Part shown: positions 18,541-26,601 of the stretch, one piece after another
Numbering within the stretch: position 1 is the first letter of the stretch
How the letters are laid out: each line of letters begins with the position of its first letter
DNA from: Bifidobacteriaceae bacterium
Lineage (GTDB): Bacteria; Actinomycetota; Actinomycetes; Actinomycetales; Bifidobacteriaceae
Length of the DNA stretch: 50,766 nucleotides
Assembly (NCBI GenBank): GCA_029227215.1
Contig: JAQXZM010000056.1
Coordinates: forward strand, 1 to 50,766
Reading direction: 5' to 3'
The notes under the pieces: generated by a model
Databases searched by the model: none
Told to the model about the DNA's origin: nothing
What the model saw: only the letters and a program-made list of their open reading frames with translations
Position numbers and translations under genes: made by a program

Positions 18541-19992
18541 ATGGCCCACGAGGCGAATGGCGACCTGAACGATACCCCCGCCAAGAACGATACCCCCGTC
18601 AGCAAGACCGCAGAGGGCGCTGCGAAAAGCAGCGACGTGGCGGCGATCGAGCAGCGCGTGGATGCGGATTGGAACCGCATCGTCGCCATGCTTTCCGATA
18701 AAATCGCACTGGCAAGCGTCTCGGCGCAAGGCATCACCGCGGACCACATGAAGCGTTCCGCGCAGTTCGTCGCCGACCAGATGAAGCTCGTGGGCATCGA
18801 CGACGCGCACGTCGTGCAGTCCACGAACCCTGACGGCACGCCAGGCGCCTGGGAGGTCATCGGCTCGAAAGTGGTGGATTCCCACGCGCCCACCGTGCTG
18901 CTGTACGCCCATCACGATGTGCAGCCGGTGCCGGACCGCACCGCGTGGCACACCGACCCGTTCGTGGCAACCACCGTGGGCGACCGCCTGTATGGGCGCG
19001 GTTCCGCCGACGATGGTGGCGGCATCGCCATTCATTCCGGCGCACTCCACGCGCTGGGCGACGACTTGCCGTGCAACATCAAGCTGTTTTTCGAAGGCGA
19101 GGAGGAGATGGGCTCGCCCAGCTTCATCCCGTTCCTCAAGGCGCACCGCGATGAATTCGATTCCGACGTGATCATCGTGGCGGATTCGGGCAACTGGTCG
19201 GCGTCCGTGCCCAGCCTCACCACCTCGCTGCGCGGCAACACCGACGTGGATGTGACGGTGAAGGTACTGGAACATCCGGTGCACTCGGGCCAGTTCGGCG
19301 GGCCGATCCTCGATGCCATCACGCTGTCCGCCATGCTCATCGCCTCGATGTATGACGCCAAGGGAGACCTGGCCGTGCCCGGCATCGTCTCGCAGGAACC
19401 GGTCGGCGGCCTGCAGCGCGACCTGGACGAGGCGACGTTCCGCGCGGATTCCTCCACGGTGCCTTCGTACCGGCTTGCAGGCACCGGCCCGCTGGCGCAG
19501 CGCGTGTGGACGAAACCGTCCGTGAGCGTCATCGGCTTCGATGCGCACCCGGTGGATGGCTCGTTCAACGTCATCGCCAACACGGCGCGCTTCCGCCTTT
19601 CCTTGCGCACTGCGCCCGGTCAGGAGCCTGCACAGGCGCAGAAGGCGCTCGCAGATTTTCTTGTCTCGCATGCCCCGCTTGGCGCCCAGGTGAGCGTTGT
19701 CAATGGCGAGAACGGCATGGGTTGGGCGATGGATCCCGATTGCAAGGCGGTGGGCGTCGCCGAGCAGGCGATGGCCGATGCGTTTGGCGTCGCGCCCGTC
19801 AACAAGGGCGAAGGCGGCTCGATCCCCTTCATTCCTGAGCTTCAGCGGCTTTTTCCCCGTGCGCAAGTGCTCGTCACCGGTCCGGAAGACCCCCAGGCGA
19901 ACGCGCATAGCCCCAACGAATCCATCTCCCTGAGCGGTCTGCGCAAGAACATCGTCACCGAAGCCCTGTTGCTCTCCCGTTTGGCTCGGTGA
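18541..19992 (+). CDS. M20-family dipeptidase
   Basis: 483 residues from ATG 18541, which follows GGAGAGG; the open frame extends upstream without similarity. It is a zinc-dependent exopeptidase that probably splits dipeptides in the cytoplasm. Visible family features are YAHHDVQP (first metal His), YGRGSADDGGGI (bridging Asp), FEGEEEMGSPSF (catalytic Glu pair) and the lid-domain stretch NVIANTARFRLSLRTAPG. An N-terminal acidic region of about 45 residues precedes the domain. The TGA stop lies in the first unit of a 15-bp tandem array. A truncated response regulator on the other strand runs into the array and, as an open frame, over the last 150 bp of this gene. Confidence 0.92.
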   Translation: MAHEANGDLNDTPAKNDTPVSKTAEGAAKSSDVAAIEQRVDADWNRIVAMLSDKIALASVSAQGITADHMKRSAQFVADQMKLVGIDDAHVVQSTNPDGTPGAWEVIGSKVVDSHAPTVLLYAHHDVQPVPDRTAWHTDPFVATTVGDRLYGRGSADDGGGIAIHSGALHALGDDLPCNIKLFFEGEEEMGSPSFIPFLKAHRDEFDSDVIIVADSGNWSASVPSLTTSLRGNTDVDVTVKVLEHPVHSGQFGGPILDAITLSAMLIASMYDAKGDLAVPGIVSQEPVGGLQRDLDEATFRADSSTVPSYRLAGTGPLAQRVWTKPSVSVIGFDAHPVDGSFNVIANTARFRLSLRTAPGQEPAQAQKALADFLVSHAPLGAQVSVVNGENGMGWAMDPDCKAVGVAEQAMADAFGVAPVNKGEGGSIPFIPELQRLFPRAQVLVTGPEDPQANAHSPNESISLSGLRKNIVTEALLLSRLAR

Positions 19993-20032
19993 TTGATGGC
20001 CCGGTGATTGATACTCCGGTGTTTGATTCGTG
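19988..20032. repeat. 15-bp tandem array, 3 units, overlapping the M20 stop
   Basis: Units of the type GGTGATTGATGGCCC start at 19988, 20003 and 20018. The peptidase stop codon is in the first unit. The response-regulator similarity on the minus strand ends where this array begins. Confidence 0.75.
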
Positions 20033-20432
20033 CCGAGGAAGCTCTAGTCCCCAAACCCCTGGGTTTCCTCGGCCATGATGGTTCCTCGGCGTGGTACGGC
20101 GAGGAACTTGTCACCATCGCCATGATCGGCATCCCTGCCGTCGCGACGCGCAGCCTGTTGCAGACGAACGGCACATGGAAGTCATCGAAGGGTTGCGCCA
20201 ACAGGATGCAGTCCGGTAGCGGCTGCCTGGGGTGGTCGATGAGACGGTCGAACGCGCTCAATCCGTTGAATGCATGAAAGGCCAATTGGAACGGCGTATC
20301 ATGCTTCAAGAGGTAATCCTTCAGACAGGCATAGGCGAGCTGGTCGTTGTCGAGGATTGCGAGTCGATAGCGTGACTGTTGCCTTTCAGGGGCGTCGCCG
20401 AATGTCGGCTGCGATTGGGATTCCGGTATCAT
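20027..20432 (-). pseudogene. Truncated response-regulator receiver domain
   Basis: An ATG at 20432 with a very good AAAGGAG site opens a frame that resembles a CheY-like receiver: RYRLAILDNDQLAYACLKDY (strand 1 with the acidic pair) and VCNRLRVATAGMPIMAMV (helix 3 to strand 4). After strand 3 the phosphoacceptor Asp is missing: DCILLAQPFDDF stands where a LLDxxMP-like motif is expected. The helix-turn-helix output domain is absent, and similarity ends near 20030 at a tandem array. The open frame then continues to 19842 antisense to the peptidase gene, which is unlikely to be meaningful. It is divergent from the secreted peptide gene and was probably its regulator. A live but divergent single-domain protein is the alternative. 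Confidence 0.6.
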
Positions 20433-20648
20433 GCGTTGAATCTCCTTTGGTTCTCTGCAATGCTCCCTTATGCGTCATTGCTAACCTCAGTATATTCTCT
20501 GAAAACTCTCCATAACGTTTTGTTGATACTTTTCGGGCGTGTCGCCTGCCGCAAGGTGTTGAAATTGAAACGGGAGGGCAAGGATGACCTTCCCGAACAT
20601 CAGACTCCGTGGCAGCGATGCCATGGAGGAAAAGAGAGGAGGCCCGCG

Positions 20649-20984
20649 ATGTCTGCAAGGTATCGTAAGGCTGCCTCTGGCGTGTTGGCTGCATTGCTGT
20701 CTGCCGGTCTGTGCCTTGGCGGCGCAACGGCTGCGAATGCAACGACCCGCTATGCGGTGACTTCCGGCTCCTGGTCGGAAGGCGATTACATGGCAAGATG
20801 GGCGATGTCGTCAACAGAGTCCCATGTGCGTGCCGTTGCGCTCGCTTCATACATTTATTGCGAAGCTGTGCAAGGCAGCGACAAGGTAAGCATGGTTGCA
20901 GCGCCGAGACAGGAGTGCAGGGCGGATGCCTATCGTCAGCCCGGCGATAGGTCGGAGGCTTCAGTGACCGTCCGTCGTCTGTGA
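20649..20984 (+). CDS. Small secreted two-cysteine peptide (bacteriocin-like?)
   Basis: 111 residues from ATG 20649, which follows GAGAGGAGG. An N-terminal signal peptide (basic start, hydrophobic 11-30) would be cut after ANA (residue 31), leaving about 80 residues with two Cys (71 and 90), probably one disulfide. It shares TES-x-V, YCEA and RQ-E/D-C in register with the peptide encoded at 21277-21639, so the two are paralogues. The setting (small secreted protein, lipoprotein, MacA-like and MacB-like genes) recalls lactococcin-972-type loci, but the family motifs are not clear enough to claim membership. No other function can be assigned. Confidence 0.7.
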   Translation: MSARYRKAASGVLAALLSAGLCLGGATAANATTRYAVTSGSWSEGDYMARWAMSSTESHVRAVALASYIYCEAVQGSDKVSMVAAPRQECRADAYRQPGDRSEASVTVRRL

Positions 20985-21276
20985 TCGCTGTTGTCACAGG
21001 AGTGGGGCCTGCTGCCTGGAGCGGGCTTACTGCATGATGCCGGAACATGACAATTGCTTTCTGCGGAAGGTGCCCAATGGGGATTTCGCAGAAGTATTTC
21101 TAGAAATGTGAAAGATCAGTGAAGGTTTGGGTATTCTCCTATCGGAATCGGATTCGATGATGGTAAGCTAACTCTAGGAAAATTAAACAGGTAATAACGA
21201 GGTTACCGGTTTTCTTGGAAAGGGCATGATTGAAATGCTGAGAAACGATAACACAAAAGTAATTGCTGCTAGATGA
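20985..21276. other. AT-richer intergenic region between the two peptide genes
   Basis: About 290 bp with no gene. The stretch 21050-21270 is markedly AT-richer than the rest of the window. A small hairpin (GGTAA/TTACC) near 21190-21207 is followed by GGTTTTC and could act as a weak terminator for the first peptide gene. Confidence 0.4.
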
Positions 21277-21639
21277 ATGACTGGGATGGGAGGTGTTCGT
21301 CGCAAGCTGTCGTTTGTGCTGGCTGCGGGGTTCTTGGCGGCACTCATCGGATTCAGCGGGGCAGGCGTCGCCAACGCAGGCGGAATCTATGAATACTAGA
21401 TTCCTGATCAGCAGGGCTCGTTCGACAGAGGATACTGGCGTGGCTCTTGGAAGGTGTCTCCCACGGAGTCTCAAGTGTACCTTTACTCGTTCAATAAGAC
21501 GGAGTATTGCGAAGCTCACCAAGACAGTCGGAGACCAGCTTGGAAAAGGATGTCCGCGCGTCAGGATTGCTCCGTAAATCAATCGGTAGGCCCGTCCGTG
21601 GCGGGTGACTACGTGAAGTATGGCGTCGAGGATTTATAG
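21277..21639 (+). pseudogene. Second secreted two-cysteine peptide, interrupted by amber codon
   Basis: From ATG 21277 the frame encodes a signal peptide ending VANA (residue 34), reaches TAG at codon 41 (21397-21399), and then continues open for 79 more codons to TAG at 21637-21639. The part after the first stop is clearly gene-like: TES-x-V at 63-67, YCEA at 77-80 and RQDC at 95-98 match the 20649 peptide in order, and the TES-to-first-Cys distance is identical. One change (for example CAG to TAG) would explain it. Alternatives are a sequencing error or suppression. The final stop overlaps the TAGGAGG ribosome binding site of the lipoprotein gene, so the reading frame was once coupled to it. 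Without the stop, the product would be 120 residues. Confidence 0.7.
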
Positions 21640-21649
21640 GAGGCGAAAG

Positions 21650-22408
21650 ATGAAGGGGCTGATTCGTACATTGACGTGCGTTGTTGCCTGTGCGGGCATG
21701 GTTGCTTGTACGGGTTGCGGGGGCCATTCGTCCGATGATGCCCCTTCGTCTTCTTCGTCCTCGCAGTCGGCATCGGAGGCGAGGATTGCATCGTCGTTGG
21801 AGGAGCGGGCGAAGTTCCTGCTGGACTACAAGGACGAGACATACCCCCGTTCCGATGAGCAGACGGCGATGTTGCAGCGTGCCGTGGACAACGATGGCGT
21901 GGTGAGCCGCGCGGATTACGAGGCGGCGTGGAACAACTACAAGCAGTGCCTTGTCGATAAGGGCTATGTGGCGCCGCAGCCGTACCAGTACCCGCATGGC
22001 CTGTATGCGATTCCTGGGACCGACACGAATGGTCTCACTCAGGAACAAATGGACAAGGTCCAGTCTGATGCCGTGTATTGCTATTCGACGTACACCATGC
22101 AGGTGCAGGACCAGTATGCCTTGCAGTTCGGCAACGAGTCTTTGACGACGGATAACTATCAGGCCATAGTCGATTGCCTCCACAAGCAGAATGTGGCTCC
22201 GGCGAGCTATACGAAGGACCAGTTCAAAACGGATAAGGAAGACCGCATGGATCGTCTTGCATCCGGTGATGATGCATCTTCCGCTTCTGCCGCAGATGAA
22301 TCCACATATCACTTGGACTTCTCGGATCCCACTGTCGGTGAATGTCTCGTGGCTAATGGCAATGATGACTTTGGAGCCCATGCGTACTATTGGCGGCCTT
22401 TCGGGTGA
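21650..22408 (+). CDS. Putative lipoprotein of the peptide/MacAB-like cluster
   Basis: 252 residues from ATG 21650, 11 bp after the previous stop, with TAGGAGG in between. A lipoprotein signal peptide (VVACAGMVAC, likely acylated Cys near residue 20) is followed by a Ser-rich linker (DDAPSSSSSSQSASE). A polar domain of about 200 residues carries several Cys, including YKQCLVDKGY, VYCYSTY and VDCLHKQN. It would be anchored on the outer face of the membrane. Similar Cys-spaced lipoproteins accompany MacA/MacB-type genes in actinobacteria. A role as immunity factor or substrate-handling partner of the exporter is only inference. Confidence 0.75.
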   Translation: MKGLIRTLTCVVACAGMVACTGCGGHSSDDAPSSSSSSQSASEARIASSLEERAKFLLDYKDETYPRSDEQTAMLQRAVDNDGVVSRADYEAAWNNYKQCLVDKGYVAPQPYQYPHGLYAIPGTDTNGLTQEQMDKVQSDAVYCYSTYTMQVQDQYALQFGNESLTTDNYQAIVDCLHKQNVAPASYTKDQFKTDKEDRMDRLASGDDASSASAADESTYHLDFSDPTVGECLVANGNDDFGAHAYYWRPFG

Positions 22409-22525
22409 CCATTGGGTGTGGCTGAAGTAAGTTTGTGCGATAATCTGTTTCATCATCATTCGCAGCAGAATGTAACAACGTTCCGATGGAAGCCTCGATG
22501 AAGGACTTCCGAAATGGGAGAGAAC

Positions 22526-23608
22526 ATGGGAAAGTCAAAGTCCAAGGGCAAGCCGGCACGTGTAAGGCGCGGGGTGTCGCTGGCATGGGTGTGTGTGCTC
22601 GTGGTGGCGGCGATCTGCATTACCGCAGGCGTGTGCGCGGTGTATCTGCCGGATCGCACGCCGGCGTTGCTGCAACGCGCCACGGAGGTCACGTCGGCTC
22701 CGGTGGAGACCCAGGAGTGGAGCGACACCCGGCAGGTCACCCTCACGCCTACGTTCTCCACGGATCGCACGCTTACCTCGAACAGCAGCGGCATGGTCAC
22801 CGCCGACTGGAGCGCGTCCGGGCTGGAGTCCGGCAAGGCCGCCTTCGCGGTCGACGGATGCCCGGTGATGGCGCTTGCCACCAGCCAGCCGCTGTGGCGC
22901 GACCTGCATTATTACGACACCGGCGAGGACGTGCGGGCGCTCAACAACGAACTCGTGCGCCTCGGGTACCCCGCTGATGCGAACAGCGCCACCTATAGCT
23001 GGAACACGGGTAACGCATGGGGCAAGCTTCTGGCGTCCGCTGGAGCCTCCGGAGCGGCGGATGGCAGTCTGTCGATCGCCGACGTGCTGTGGATACCTGA
23101 AGGGGCCGTGAGTGTGTCGGGGTGGGCCGCCAGCCCCGGCGCCCAGATCATGGCGGGCGGTCAGCTTGCCACGGTGCCCGGCGTGCTGCAGAGGCTCACC
23201 GTGGGCGGCGCCTCGGCGGGGAACGCGGACCGCACCGTCATGCTCTACGGCCTGAGCGCCACGCTGCCCGCGGGCCAGACCGAGATCACCGATCAGACCT
23301 TCCTCGATGCCCTGTCCGCCTCCCAGTCATGGAAGTCGCAGAGCGTTGACTCGCTCGCTGCCGGCGTCTCTGGCAGCATCTCGACGGGAAGCTCCACCCA
23401 TGTGCTGCGTGTGCCCGCCGCCGCCGTGTATGGCATGGATGAGACGGGTGCGAACGGGTGCATCGTCGCCGACGGCAAGACCGTGCATGTCTCGGTGGTG
23501 GGCGCCCAGATGGGCGTGAGCCTGGTGACCGCCACCGACGGCAGCGACATCGACGCGATGCGCAACGTCACGGTCGGCTCGGCTTTGAGGAGCGCGACAT
23601 GCGAGTGA
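22526..23608 (+). CDS. MacA/HlyD-like membrane protein with peptidoglycan-binding motif
   Basis: 360 residues from ATG 22526, chosen over ATG 22514 because GGGAGAG then sits as the ribosome binding site. A basic head and one membrane helix (about residues 19-40) are followed by an extracytoplasmic region. The motif DTGEDVRALNNELVRLGY (about 131-148) is typical of peptidoglycan-binding repeats that are often inserted in actinobacterial periplasmic adaptor proteins. Beta-rich stretches with TPTFSTDRTLTSNSSGMVT and VLRVPAAAVYG fit an adaptor fold. It would link the MacB-type exporter to the cell wall. The ABC gene starts 10 nt before its stop, so the two are translationally coupled. Confidence 0.8.
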   Translation: MGKSKSKGKPARVRRGVSLAWVCVLVVAAICITAGVCAVYLPDRTPALLQRATEVTSAPVETQEWSDTRQVTLTPTFSTDRTLTSNSSGMVTADWSASGLESGKAAFAVDGCPVMALATSQPLWRDLHYYDTGEDVRALNNELVRLGYPADANSATYSWNTGNAWGKLLASAGASGAADGSLSIADVLWIPEGAVSVSGWAASPGAQIMAGGQLATVPGVLQRLTVGGASAGNADRTVMLYGLSATLPAGQTEITDQTFLDALSASQSWKSQSVDSLAAGVSGSISTGSSTHVLRVPAAAVYGMDETGANGCIVADGKTVHVSVVGAQMGVSLVTATDGSDIDAMRNVTVGSALRSATCE

Positions 23609-25614
23609 CGGCAGTGGATGTGGCCCACCGGTTTCCAGGCACTGACATCCTGTTCGAGCATCTGAGCTTCACCGTGGAGCCCGGCGAAGTGGTGGCGCTG
23701 TGCGGTCCGTCCGGTTGCGGCAAGTCAACGCTGCTTTCCATCCTTGCCGGGTGGGAGAAACCGTGGGCGGGGCGCATCGAGCGCGAGGGGATCGACCGCG
23801 TGGGATGGGTGTTCCAGAACCCCTATGGTGTGGCGAACCGCAGTGCGCTCGACCACGTGACGTTCCCCCTGCTTGCCAAGGGGCTGGGCCGCAAGGAGGC
23901 GGAGGCGCAGGCACGGGAGGCGCTGGCGCTGTTCTCGCTCGAGGATGTCGCCGACCGGCGTTTCGCCGAGCTTTCCGGCGGCGAGGCGCAGCGCCTCATG
24001 CTCGCCCGTGCCGTGTGCTCCCACCCGGACATGCTCCTCGTGGATGAGCCGACCGCCCAGCTCGACACCCGCACCGCCGAATCGGTGAGCCATGTGCTCG
24101 GCAACCTCGCGGGACAGGGCATGATCGTGTTCGTCGCCACCCATGACCCGCGCACGCGCGATGCGTGCGATCGCGTGATCGACCTGGCGGACTATGCGCC
24201 TCCGGAGGGCGAAACCGAGGAGGAGTCCGAGAGCCCGGACACGGCGAAGACGGCGGGCGTGGAGGATACCGCCGGTGCCGCCGATATCTCTGATGGCGCG
24301 GTGAGGGTCGGTGAGGCGATCGCGCAGGTCGACGGTAACGATGCGAATTTCACAACGTCGCACAATGAAACTTTATCAAGCGAAACGCTGTTGAGCGAAA
24401 CGTTATCAAATCCACAAGGCGCTGCGGAAGAATCCAGTGGGGAAGGCTCCGGCAGGGCGGAAGGAGGCGAATCGGCCCCGCAGGGCATGCCGCTCGCAAC
24501 GGCCTTGCCGCAGGTCGCAGCAACGGGCAGGCGCATGCGGCTGCGCTGCATCTGCTCTGAAGCACACCGCAACCTGTCACTCGGTGTCACGCACGCGCTC
24601 GTGTTCATGCTCATCATGCTCGTCGCCTCCTTGTTGCTGGGCGGCTATGATGCCTTGAACATCATCGCGTTGCAGAACCAGGCGGTCACGCGCGTCTCCA
24701 CCATGGCCGATGCGCGCGACGTGATGGGCGGCGCCGTGGACGGCGTGGCGTGCGACGAATTGAGCCGTTCCGACGATGTGCGCGAATCCGGCGCGCTGCG
24801 TTCCGATGATTCCGTGATCCCGACGGCCACCCCGCGCCAGGAAGTGCCGGTGTACGAGGTGAGCCCCGGCATGGTCCAGCTCATCGCTGACTCCGAACGG
24901 TCCTCGTCCGTCACCGCGGATGCCACCAAGGTGTGGGTCTCCAGCGAACTCGCCGATCTCTTCGGCATCGCACCCGGATCGGTGGTGCCCACCAACAAGG
25001 GCACGATGACGGTGGGCGGCGTGTTCGACTGGCCCAATGACGGGCGCGACACCCGTTTCTCGTTCGCGTTCCTCGTGCCGGCGAGCGCGTCGGATGGGCA
25101 GTTCCAGGAATGCTGGGCGCAGCAGTGGCCGGTGGACGACCAGCTCGATGCGCTGCTGTACACGACGGTCGTCGCCGACCCCTCTTCGCAGAACGTGGGC
25201 GTGCTCGGCTTGAACAACGGGTACTCGAAGTGGGATGCCGAGGGCGCCTACCAGTCGCGCACCACGCGCGTCGTGCCGTGGATTGGCTTGGGCGTGGGCG
25301 TGGCGTGCGGTGCCATTGCCGTCATGCGGCGGCGGTTGGAATACGCCGGTGCGCTTCACGCCGGGCAGTCTCGTGGCTCGCTGCTGCTGGGCATCGCGTT
25401 GGAGACGCTCGTATGGGCGGGGCTTGCGGCGCTGGGTTCGGGGCTGTTGCTCGCCGGGCTGTGTGAGAGGCTGTGCCCCGCGGGCGTCGCAACGGTGGCG
25501 CAGCAGTGCGTGCGGGTGCCGGTGGCGATGTTCGCCGGAGCGGTGGTGATGGCGCTGTTTGTCGGCGTGTGCATCCGCGAATCCCGCCTGCTCAAGTACT
25601 TCAAGAACCGCTGA
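23599..25614 (+). CDS. MacB-type ABC transporter, fused ATPase and permease
   Basis: 671 residues from ATG 23599, overlapping the adaptor gene by 10 nt. The N-terminal ATPase has Walker A GPSGCGKST (36-44), the signature ELSGGEAQR near 123, Walker B MLLVDEPT near 144 and the switch His in VFVATHD. A low-complexity linker (about 193-310) contains a coding repeat ETLSS/ETLLS/ETLSN. One membrane helix follows near 333-355, then an outer domain, then three helices at the end (about 555-660). This NBD-TM1-outer domain-TM2-4 order is the MacB layout, used for mechanotransmission rather than transport through a channel. With the adaptor, lipoprotein and peptides it probably exports or responds to a secreted peptide. 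Confidence 0.88.
   Translation: MRVTAVDVAHRFPGTDILFEHLSFTVEPGEVVALCGPSGCGKSTLLSILAGWEKPWAGRIEREGIDRVGWVFQNPYGVANRSALDHVTFPLLAKGLGRKEAEAQAREALALFSLEDVADRRFAELSGGEAQRLMLARAVCSHPDMLLVDEPTAQLDTRTAESVSHVLGNLAGQGMIVFVATHDPRTRDACDRVIDLADYAPPEGETEEESESPDTAKTAGVEDTAGAADISDGAVRVGEAIAQVDGNDANFTTSHNETLSSETLLSETLSNPQGAAEESSGEGSGRAEGGESAPQGMPLATALPQVAATGRRMRLRCICSEAHRNLSLGVTHALVFMLIMLVASLLLGGYDALNIIALQNQAVTRVSTMADARDVMGGAVDGVACDELSRSDDVRESGALRSDDSVIPTATPRQEVPVYEVSPGMVQLIADSERSSSVTADATKVWVSSELADLFGIAPGSVVPTNKGTMTVGGVFDWPNDGRDTRFSFAFLVPASASDGQFQECWAQQWPVDDQLDALLYTTVVADPSSQNVGVLGLNNGYSKWDAEGAYQSRTTRVVPWIGLGVGVACGAIAVMRRRLEYAGALHAGQSRGSLLLGIALETLVWAGLAALGSGLLLAGLCERLCPAGVATVAQQCVRVPVAMFAGAVVMALFVGVCIRESRLLKYFKNR
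24367..24411 (+). repeat. Coding 15-bp tandem array, 3 units (ETLSS)
   Basis: In-frame units starting at 24367, 24382 and 24397 encode ETLSS, ETLLS and ETLSN in the linker between ATPase and permease. They are AT-richer than the flanking codons. Confidence 0.75.
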
Positions 25615-25692: not shown

Positions 25693-26601
25693 ATGCCCAT
25701 TAGCTCTGCAGTGCTTGAAAATCCCAAGTCCGACCGCATCCGCCACGTCGCCGATCTCTCGTCGCGCCACACGCGGCGCAAGATCGGCAGGTTCCTGGTG
25801 GAGGGGCCGCAAAGCGTGCGGGAAGCGGTGCGGTTCATGCCCGCCGCCGTGCACGACCTGTATGTGAGCGCCTCGCTCATGCATGACCCGCGCAGCGCGG
25901 TCGAGGCAATCGCCTACGAGGCCGACCGCGAGGGGATCTACGTGCACTCATGCAATGGCGCCGTGATGGAACGCATCAGCACCGACTGCCAGGGCATCGC
26001 CGCCGTCATGGATTGCGATGCGGTGGAGCATGCCGCCACCCGGCCGGTCGACGAACGCCTCGCCGCGGCGGACCAGGCGGGGCGAGGCCTCGTCGCCGCA
26101 TGCTGGCAGGTGCGCGACCCGGGCAACGCCGGCACCATCATCCGCGTCGCCGACGCGGCGGGATGCGCCGGGGTCATTTTCGTGGACGAATGCGTGGACG
26201 TGACGAACCCCAAGGTCGTGCGGTCCACCGCCGGATCGCTCTTCCACCTGCCCGTCGTGCGGCTTGGCGTCGACGGGTTCTTCGGATGGGCAGCGGAGCA
26301 CGGCGTGCACGTGACCGCCGCCGACGTGTACGGCACGCCGGTCAAGAAACCCATCAGCCTGCCCGACATGCTCGCAGGCAGCGAGACAGGCAGCGACATG
26401 GGCAGCGGCGACGGGGCGCAGGCGCACGGGCCCCGCGCCGTGCTCTTCGGCAACGAGGCGCGCGGCCTGGAAGAAGGCACCGTCAACCGGTGCGACGATG
26501 TGGTGACCATACCTATATATGGGAAGGCGGAATCGCTCAACGTCGCCACGAGCGCCGCCGTGCTGCTCTACGCGTTCGCCATGCGAAGCGCGGCGCGCTG
26601 A
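25693..26601 (+). CDS. SpoU/TrmH-family RNA 2'-O-methyltransferase
   Basis: 302 residues from ATG 25693. It transfers a methyl group from S-adenosylmethionine to a ribose 2'-OH of rRNA or tRNA. An N-terminal substrate-binding domain (about 1-105, with RKIGRFLVEGPQSVREA) precedes the knotted SPOUT domain. The three family motifs are visible: PGNAGTIIRVADAAG, VLFGNEARGL and IPIYGKAESLNVATSAAVLLY. A Gly/Ser-rich loop interrupts the domain near residues 232-250. The target nucleotide cannot be told. pheS follows on the same strand with its own promoter. Confidence 0.92.
   Translation: MPISSAVLENPKSDRIRHVADLSSRHTRRKIGRFLVEGPQSVREAVRFMPAAVHDLYVSASLMHDPRSAVEAIAYEADREGIYVHSCNGAVMERISTDCQGIAAVMDCDAVEHAATRPVDERLAAADQAGRGLVAACWQVRDPGNAGTIIRVADAAGCAGVIFVDECVDVTNPKVVRSTAGSLFHLPVVRLGVDGFFGWAAEHGVHVTAADVYGTPVKKPISLPDMLAGSETGSDMGSGDGAQAHGPRAVLFGNEARGLEEGTVNRCDDVVTIPIYGKAESLNVATSAAVLLYAFAMRSAAR

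Follow-up and report, generated by a model that had tools for sequence, protein, structure and literature searches.

A partly decayed peptide, lipoprotein and MacAB-type pump cassette of Pseudoscardovia: a probable bacteriocin-immunity locus with a predicted lactococcin-972 fold

The window analysed here, a stretch of 50,766 nucleotides, is contig 56 (JAQXZM010000056.1) of a 2.0-Mb genome assembled in 144 contigs (GCA_029227215.1), and its source organism was assigned to Pseudoscardovia (Bifidobacteriaceae) because, among named organisms, Pseudoscardovia suis is the nearest to it (96% identity in the ATPase). Between an M20-family dipeptidase gene and an RNA methyltransferase gene, it carries a cassette consisting of a divergent, truncated response regulator, two small secreted-peptide genes, a lipoprotein, a membrane-fusion-protein-like adaptor and a fused ATP-binding cassette (ABC) ATPase-permease (Table 1). 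We concluded that this is probably a partly decayed bacteriocin-immunity cassette, where bacteriocins of the lactococcin-972 fold are accompanied by an immunity lipoprotein and a self-protection pump of the MacAB/YknXYZ type, the two taking the place of the usual LclB-type membrane protein. The lipoprotein, adaptor and ABC protein are all intact and lie on the same strand as the peptides. The first-pass annotation, made from the sequence alone, had described the peptide-coding part as richer in A+T than its surroundings and the regulator as truncated. Both observations were confirmed: the G+C content of the peptide and lipoprotein part is 45-60% compared with 65-69% around it, and only the N-terminal ~115 residues of the regulator are left, compared with 265 in P. 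suis. The Pfam models Response_reg and GerE match, weakly, in the P. suis copy of the regulator.

Peptide 1 has a cleavable signal peptide (20649-20741), ending in an A-x-A site as read from the sequence, and a mature part of 80 amino acids (aa) with two cysteines (20742-20981). In peptide 2, an in-frame stop codon splits the signal peptide from the mature part (21400-21636), the two parts being in one frame. The motifs TES-x-V, YCEA and RQ-[ED]-C stand in register in the two sequences, as noticed in the first-pass annotation and confirmed here, and the peptide 1 query retrieved peptide 2 from the whole genome at E = 5e-6, thus their paralogy is not a matter of chance. Of the two paralogous secreted peptides proposed originally, the paralogy and the intact state of peptide 1 were upheld, while peptide 2 proved to have no open reading frame, and since it is broken, the presence of two functional peptides is not supported. 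No Pfam or NCBIfam model matched the peptides and a sequence search of the PDB returned no relative. The suspicion that the family may be new was borne out insofar as it is undescribed in the libraries searched, and no already described non-secreted family matched the peptides. Conserved cysteines were rejected as the defining feature, since some members have only one cysteine or a shifted one.

The lipoprotein predicted beside the peptides was found at the expected place, with the lipobox cysteine (Cys23) and four further conserved cysteines, all five of which are invariant across the family alignment. Its predicted structure is confident and all-helical; Foldseek and VIA-align found nothing above Z 3.5 for this model, which does not by itself prove a new fold, and kinship to named families was discarded as only weak lipobox-type matches were obtained, none above cut-off. 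The adaptor has one transmembrane (TM) helix at residues 21-39, consistent with the membrane adaptor annotated before, but the peptidoglycan-binding repeat ascribed to it did not reach the Pfam model in the window copy: among 18 homologues, HlyD_3 was matched in four and PG_binding_1 in six, and the window copy stayed below threshold. The MacB layout of the ABC protein was recovered in full, with an N-terminal ATPase domain (ABC_tran, E 1e-29) followed by TM helices near 328-348, 558-576, 604-622 and 641-659 and an extracytoplasmic domain of ~210 aa after the first helix, even though the MacB_PCD match was weak (E 0.013). The model nearest to the ATPase, TIGR03608, represents lactococcin-972-type ABC proteins. 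ATPase and permease are encoded by one gene in Pseudoscardovia and by two in Bifidobacterium, and the ATPase gene precedes the adaptor in L125 (9614-13278) and L152 (7133-11006), showing that the arrangement of the pump genes varies from species to species.

Table 1. Features of the cassette and its flanks in the window, followed by related features at other loci (positions within each locus)
Feature	Position	Strand	Basis or remark
M20-family dipeptidase gene, flanking	18541-19992	+	tblastn of flanking proteins against related loci; same neighbour at ~20 Bifidobacteriaceae loci
Response regulator, truncated	20091-20432	-	receiver-like N-terminal part, no HTH (helix-turn-helix) domain; complete in P. 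suis (265 aa)
Peptide 1, intact secreted precursor, 111 aa	20649-20984	+	translation; homologues in P. suis, Pseudoscardovia G003, Bifidobacterium
Spacer, site of peptide 1's downstream lipoprotein in P. suis	20985-21285	+	no tblastn remnant
Peptide 2, broken	21286-21639	+	in-frame TAG 21397-21399; intact orthologues in L033/L132 and L034
Lipoprotein, 252 aa, presumed cognate immunity protein of peptide 2	21650-22408	+	family alignment, position after peptide, all-helical model
Adaptor, membrane-fusion-protein-like	22526-23608	+	one N-terminal TM helix; homologues match HlyD, PG_binding_1
Fused ABC ATPase-permease, MacB layout, 671 aa	23599-25614	+	ATPase nearest TIGR03608, below cut-off
RNA methyltransferase (TrmH/SpoU-type) gene, flanking, other cassette edge	25699-26601	+	edge conserved in G001, G003
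Lipoprotein arrays	L124 3874-8043; L130 5874-11761; L133 1710-6680; L149 2108-10699		
Other small secreted proteins	L074 8596-8901; L077 4903-5205; L081 8711-9028; L082 5407-5733; L157 5085-5393; L158 5706-6026; L242 6165-6488; L245 5916-6251		
CPxxxWxC peptides	L070 9361-9516; L130 8007-8153; L139 5491-5649; L120 1988-2143; L082 4998-5171; L081 9276-9512		

Intact versions of the cassette are common among bifidobacteria. P. suis (L033/L132) has the 265-aa regulator, two peptide-lipoprotein pairs, a third lipoprotein, the adaptor and the ABC protein, and Pseudoscardovia genome G003 (L034) has one peptide, one lipoprotein, the adaptor and the ABC protein. In a further Pseudoscardovia genome (G002), the site is empty, with ~140 bp between the M20 gene and the methyltransferase. 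The window copy is a decayed one, because one peptide is broken, one partner lipoprotein has been lost and the regulator is truncated; tblastn detected no remnant of the P. suis lipoprotein behind peptide 1. The identity between the window and P. suis is 53-55% for the peptides, 70% for the lipoprotein, 89% for the adaptor, 88% for the ABC protein and 86% for the methyltransferase, that is, both surface partners (peptide and lipoprotein) change fast, while the pump does not.

The iterated peptide family comprised 22 members in the examined loci, with one gene counted twice (21 distinct). The next same-strand gene is a lipoprotein after 21 of the 22 peptides, with gaps from -82 to +141 bp, and the sole exception to this order is peptide 1 of the window. 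The distance matrices of peptides and lipoproteins were correlated (Mantel r 0.79, p 5e-5, 18 pairs), also when the within-genome paralogues of Bifidobacterium cuniculi and G133 were compared (r 0.76, p 2.5e-4). The correlated divergence therefore indicates stable pairing and not contact, as the shared ancestry of neighbouring genes gives correlation too. The neighbourhood survey placed ~15 of the 21 distinct copies beside adaptor/ABC genes, so the homologues do not occur mainly away from MacAB genes, and the genomes with a clear peptide match whose loci were read also carry the adaptor/ABC cassette. When a profile of the mature peptide was run over 189 Bifidobacteriaceae genomes, clear members appeared only in Pseudoscardovia and Bifidobacterium, in about ten genomes. 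Peptide homologues were seen in Bifidobacteriaceae only; weak matches in other orders were treated as noise, and a weak match in G000:C42 (L035) contained no recognisable peptide gene. B. cuniculi (G123) has five peptides, each paired with a lipoprotein (L119-L123); four of these pairs have no pump on the stretch examined, and some lie at contig ends or near a transposase-like open reading frame.

Within the family, the lipoprotein is more widespread than the peptide, being present in 86 of the 189 species genomes in up to 12 copies, but a sample of 395 genomes drawn from the whole class contained it in only 6. For about 65 of 100 lipoproteins, no peptide could be recognised in front of the gene, and many of these are in arrays, which is what the retention of immunity genes after loss of their toxin would produce. 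At several loci (Table 1), three to five paralogues stand together with at most two peptides, resembling immunity-gene arrays. Another contig of the window's own genome (L240 7148-8505, G000:C6) bears two tandem lipoproteins of the family without a peptide, possibly as extra immunity genes.

AlphaFold2, given an alignment of the mature peptide 2 orthologue from P. suis and six relatives, returned an all-beta model of eight strands (predicted local distance difference test, pLDDT, 82.6). Foldseek alone gave no clear match for this model. Structural realignment of its top 1000 chains, on the other hand, ranked formosin D (9hkj) first with Z 8.5 and lactococcin 972 (2lgn) second with Z 8.4 (64 of 66 residues at 1.8 A); the first unrelated chain followed at Z 5.7, and a lactococcin-972 profile search of the PDB found these two as the only chains of the family. 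A Z of ~8 alone would be modest, and the match is persuasive because both family members rank first and lactococcin 972 is almost fully covered. Thus, the mature peptide is predicted to have the lactococcin-972 beta-sandwich fold. Members of this family are beta-sandwich proteins that bind lipid II, and lactococcin 972 stops septation (PMC11796350).

As an independent link, a genuine PF09683 lactococcin 972 was found in the same gene slot. At L292 (5867-6983, genome G165), the gene of a 132-aa secreted precursor matching PF09683 (E 2.3e-11) is followed after ~10 bp by the lipoprotein, adaptor, ATPase and permease genes of this cassette, which therefore also serves a lactococcin-972 protein recognised by its sequence. 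This was the only such case among 20 PF09683 loci from Bifidobacteriaceae. The early hint at lactococcin-972-type loci was consequently right for the gene slot and, in the predicted model, for the fold; the profile-profile and structure checks suggested at that stage gave a split answer, negative in sequence and positive in structure.

Several points weigh against a lactococcin-972-like bacteriocin with its own immunity protein. The alignment behind the fold contained only seven sequences, two of the five models were confident (82.6 and 82.7) and three were poor (54-57), and models without a true match can also reach a best Z of 7-8. When the profiles of the peptides and of lactococcin 972 were compared, nothing was found (hhalign probability 0.1). 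The idea that the peptide is a sequence-detectable lactococcin 972 was rejected, as neither PF09683 nor TIGR01653 matched above the curated cut-off, and a search of Pseudoscardovia genomes for PF09683 returned nothing. The usual partner of lactococcin 972, the LclB-like membrane protein, is absent from the cassette. Finally, peptide 1 has no lipoprotein of its own, a state at odds with a strict toxin-immunity pair unless protection by the remaining lipoprotein or the L240 lipoproteins, or a loss of its expression, suffices.

Comparison with known systems showed that the parts are of known kinds and that their combination, a peptide of predicted lactococcin-972 fold with a private lipoprotein and a MacAB-type pump, is undescribed in the libraries and papers searched. 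Like the lactococcin 972 family (PF09683; lactococcin 972 itself, formosin D, streptococcin B), the peptides have a Sec signal peptide and a mature part of ~60-85 aa, but they usually contain two cysteines, and where the cassette has lipoprotein, adaptor and MacB-type permease, typical PF09683 loci inside and outside Bifidobacteriaceae, and most of those examined, encode the bacteriocin, an LclB-like membrane protein of ~650-740 aa and an ATPase, with no lipoprotein or adaptor. In lantibiotic immunity of the NisI/SpaI type, a lipoprotein plus an ABC transporter give self-immunity, the same logic as suggested here, although the window lipoprotein matches no named lipoprotein family above cut-off and its helical model found no counterpart in the Foldseek and VIA-align comparisons. 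The YknWXYZ system of Bacillus likewise consists of adaptor, ATPase and a 4-TM permease and protects against the secreted disulfide peptide SDP (PMC4887032). The ykn operon as described has no lipoprotein and no linked toxin gene, whereas here ATPase and permease are fused, a toxin-like gene is in the cassette and no YknW was seen. In Enterococcus, AS-48EFGH, a MacB-type transporter and its cognate adaptor within a bacteriocin cluster, protects against AS-48 and is needed for resistance (PMC8306556, PMC5985334), but AS-48 is circular and helical and the extra component is a four-TM protein instead of a lipoprotein.

The proposed antagonism and self-protection cassette remained the best-supported reading, and its parts may act as follows. 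The peptides would be exported by Sec via their own signal peptides and act on other cells; their site of action is presumably the cell wall, as for lactococcin 972, with lipid II as the putative target. The surface-anchored lipoprotein may bind or intercept the peptide on the outer face of the producer's cell membrane. MacB proteins do not move substrates across the membrane (PMC5985334), and the adaptor and MacB-type pump would clear the peptide from the membrane and cell-wall zone of the producer by mechanotransmission, like YknXYZ or AS-48FGH, and would not carry it out of the cytoplasm. In the window genome, peptide 2 is inactivated and its lipoprotein and the pump are retained, so this cassette may be shifting from production to immunity only.

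The first-pass annotation regarded the ABC protein as the exporter of the peptides, and in an extended form of this idea, the adaptor and ABC protein form a dedicated MacAB-style secretion device with the lipoprotein as secretion chaperone. The tight linkage of the genes fits such a role, and MacAB is able to move a protein toxin out of the periplasm (PMC5985334). Nevertheless, the peptide itself bears a Sec-type signal peptide, the peptide is missing from many loci that have lipoprotein and pump, which agrees better with self-protection, and six peptide-lipoprotein pairs lie away from any pump on the stretch examined, thus we consider this role unlikely, and the proposal of an exporter was not supported. 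The loci without peptide would be explained as well if the lipoprotein-adaptor-ABC set were primarily a broad resistance module against envelope antibiotics or foreign bacteriocins with the peptides as occasional passengers, and the much wider occurrence of the lipoprotein than of clear peptide matches points the same way. On the other side, the peptide almost never occurs without a lipoprotein and stands co-oriented directly upstream of it, and elsewhere unrelated small secreted proteins occupy the same slot, therefore peptides may be undercounted; a set devoted mainly to broad resistance seems quite improbable to us.

Many cassettes have a response regulator next to them, frequently together with a HisKA_3-like kinase, which raises another alternative, namely that the peptides are signals or envelope-stress ligands, the lipoprotein is their receptor and the ABC protein is a BceAB-like sensor acting on the regulator. 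We think this very improbable, as regulators occur in only 26 of the 69 loci examined, the divergence of peptide and lipoprotein is fast and correlated, the model gives the peptide the fold of a known bacteriocin family, and a separate small peptide beside the regulator is a better candidate for the signal. Such peptides, 48-57 aa long, secreted and ending in CPxxxWxC, were detected beside several related cassettes (six strong profile matches, Table 1, plus weaker ones across the family), and in the clearest cases they lie within 35 bp upstream of an intact LuxR-type regulator followed by a HisKA_3-like kinase. Peptide, regulator and kinase are a candidate three-gene pheromone system of bifidobacteria. 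The window cassette has the truncated regulator only.

As to the history of the locus, it had been supposed that the cassette was probably acquired. This was not supported: the M20 neighbour (66-88% identical) borders the cassette in ~20 loci of Pseudoscardovia and Bifidobacterium, and the low G+C content of the peptide and lipoprotein genes is also present in P. suis; recent acquisition was rejected on these grounds. A plasmid origin was dismissed too, as plasmids gave just 33-bp matches to the ABC gene. The locus is old and has been repeatedly lost and reshuffled, rather than recently imported.

The same lipoprotein-adaptor-ABC order was found in other Actinobacteria (Nocardiopsis, Propionibacteriaceae and other families), several of these loci having other small secreted proteins upstream, dissimilar in sequence to the window peptides. 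In other genomes, proteins of this kind (~100 aa, often with two cysteines and rich in aromatic residues) are encoded immediately before the lipoprotein (Table 1). Their sequence kinship to the window peptides was rejected, since those of L074, L077, L081, L158 and others showed no profile similarity. A wider and more tentative reading, which we would rather doubt than adopt at present, is that these loci form an undescribed actinobacterial bacteriocin class in which many small secreted proteins of no common origin rely on a single scheme of immunity: a Cys-rich lipoprotein specific to each peptide would capture it at the surface of the producer and hand it to a shared MacAB-type pump, the lipoprotein arrays would constitute a resistance repertoire and, in bifidobacteria, the system would be under three-gene pheromone control by CPxxxWxC peptide, regulator and kinase.

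Neither the peptide family nor the lipoprotein family nor their combination has a name in the libraries searched, and searches of open-licence papers found no description of them. The surface lipoprotein paired one-to-one with each peptide is a different and smaller immunity candidate than the LclB-type protein, and it is common in a family of gut bacteria. The cassette thus suggests a hidden repertoire of bacteriocins and immunity functions in these organisms, which escapes sequence profiles because the fold of the peptides is conserved and their sequence is not.

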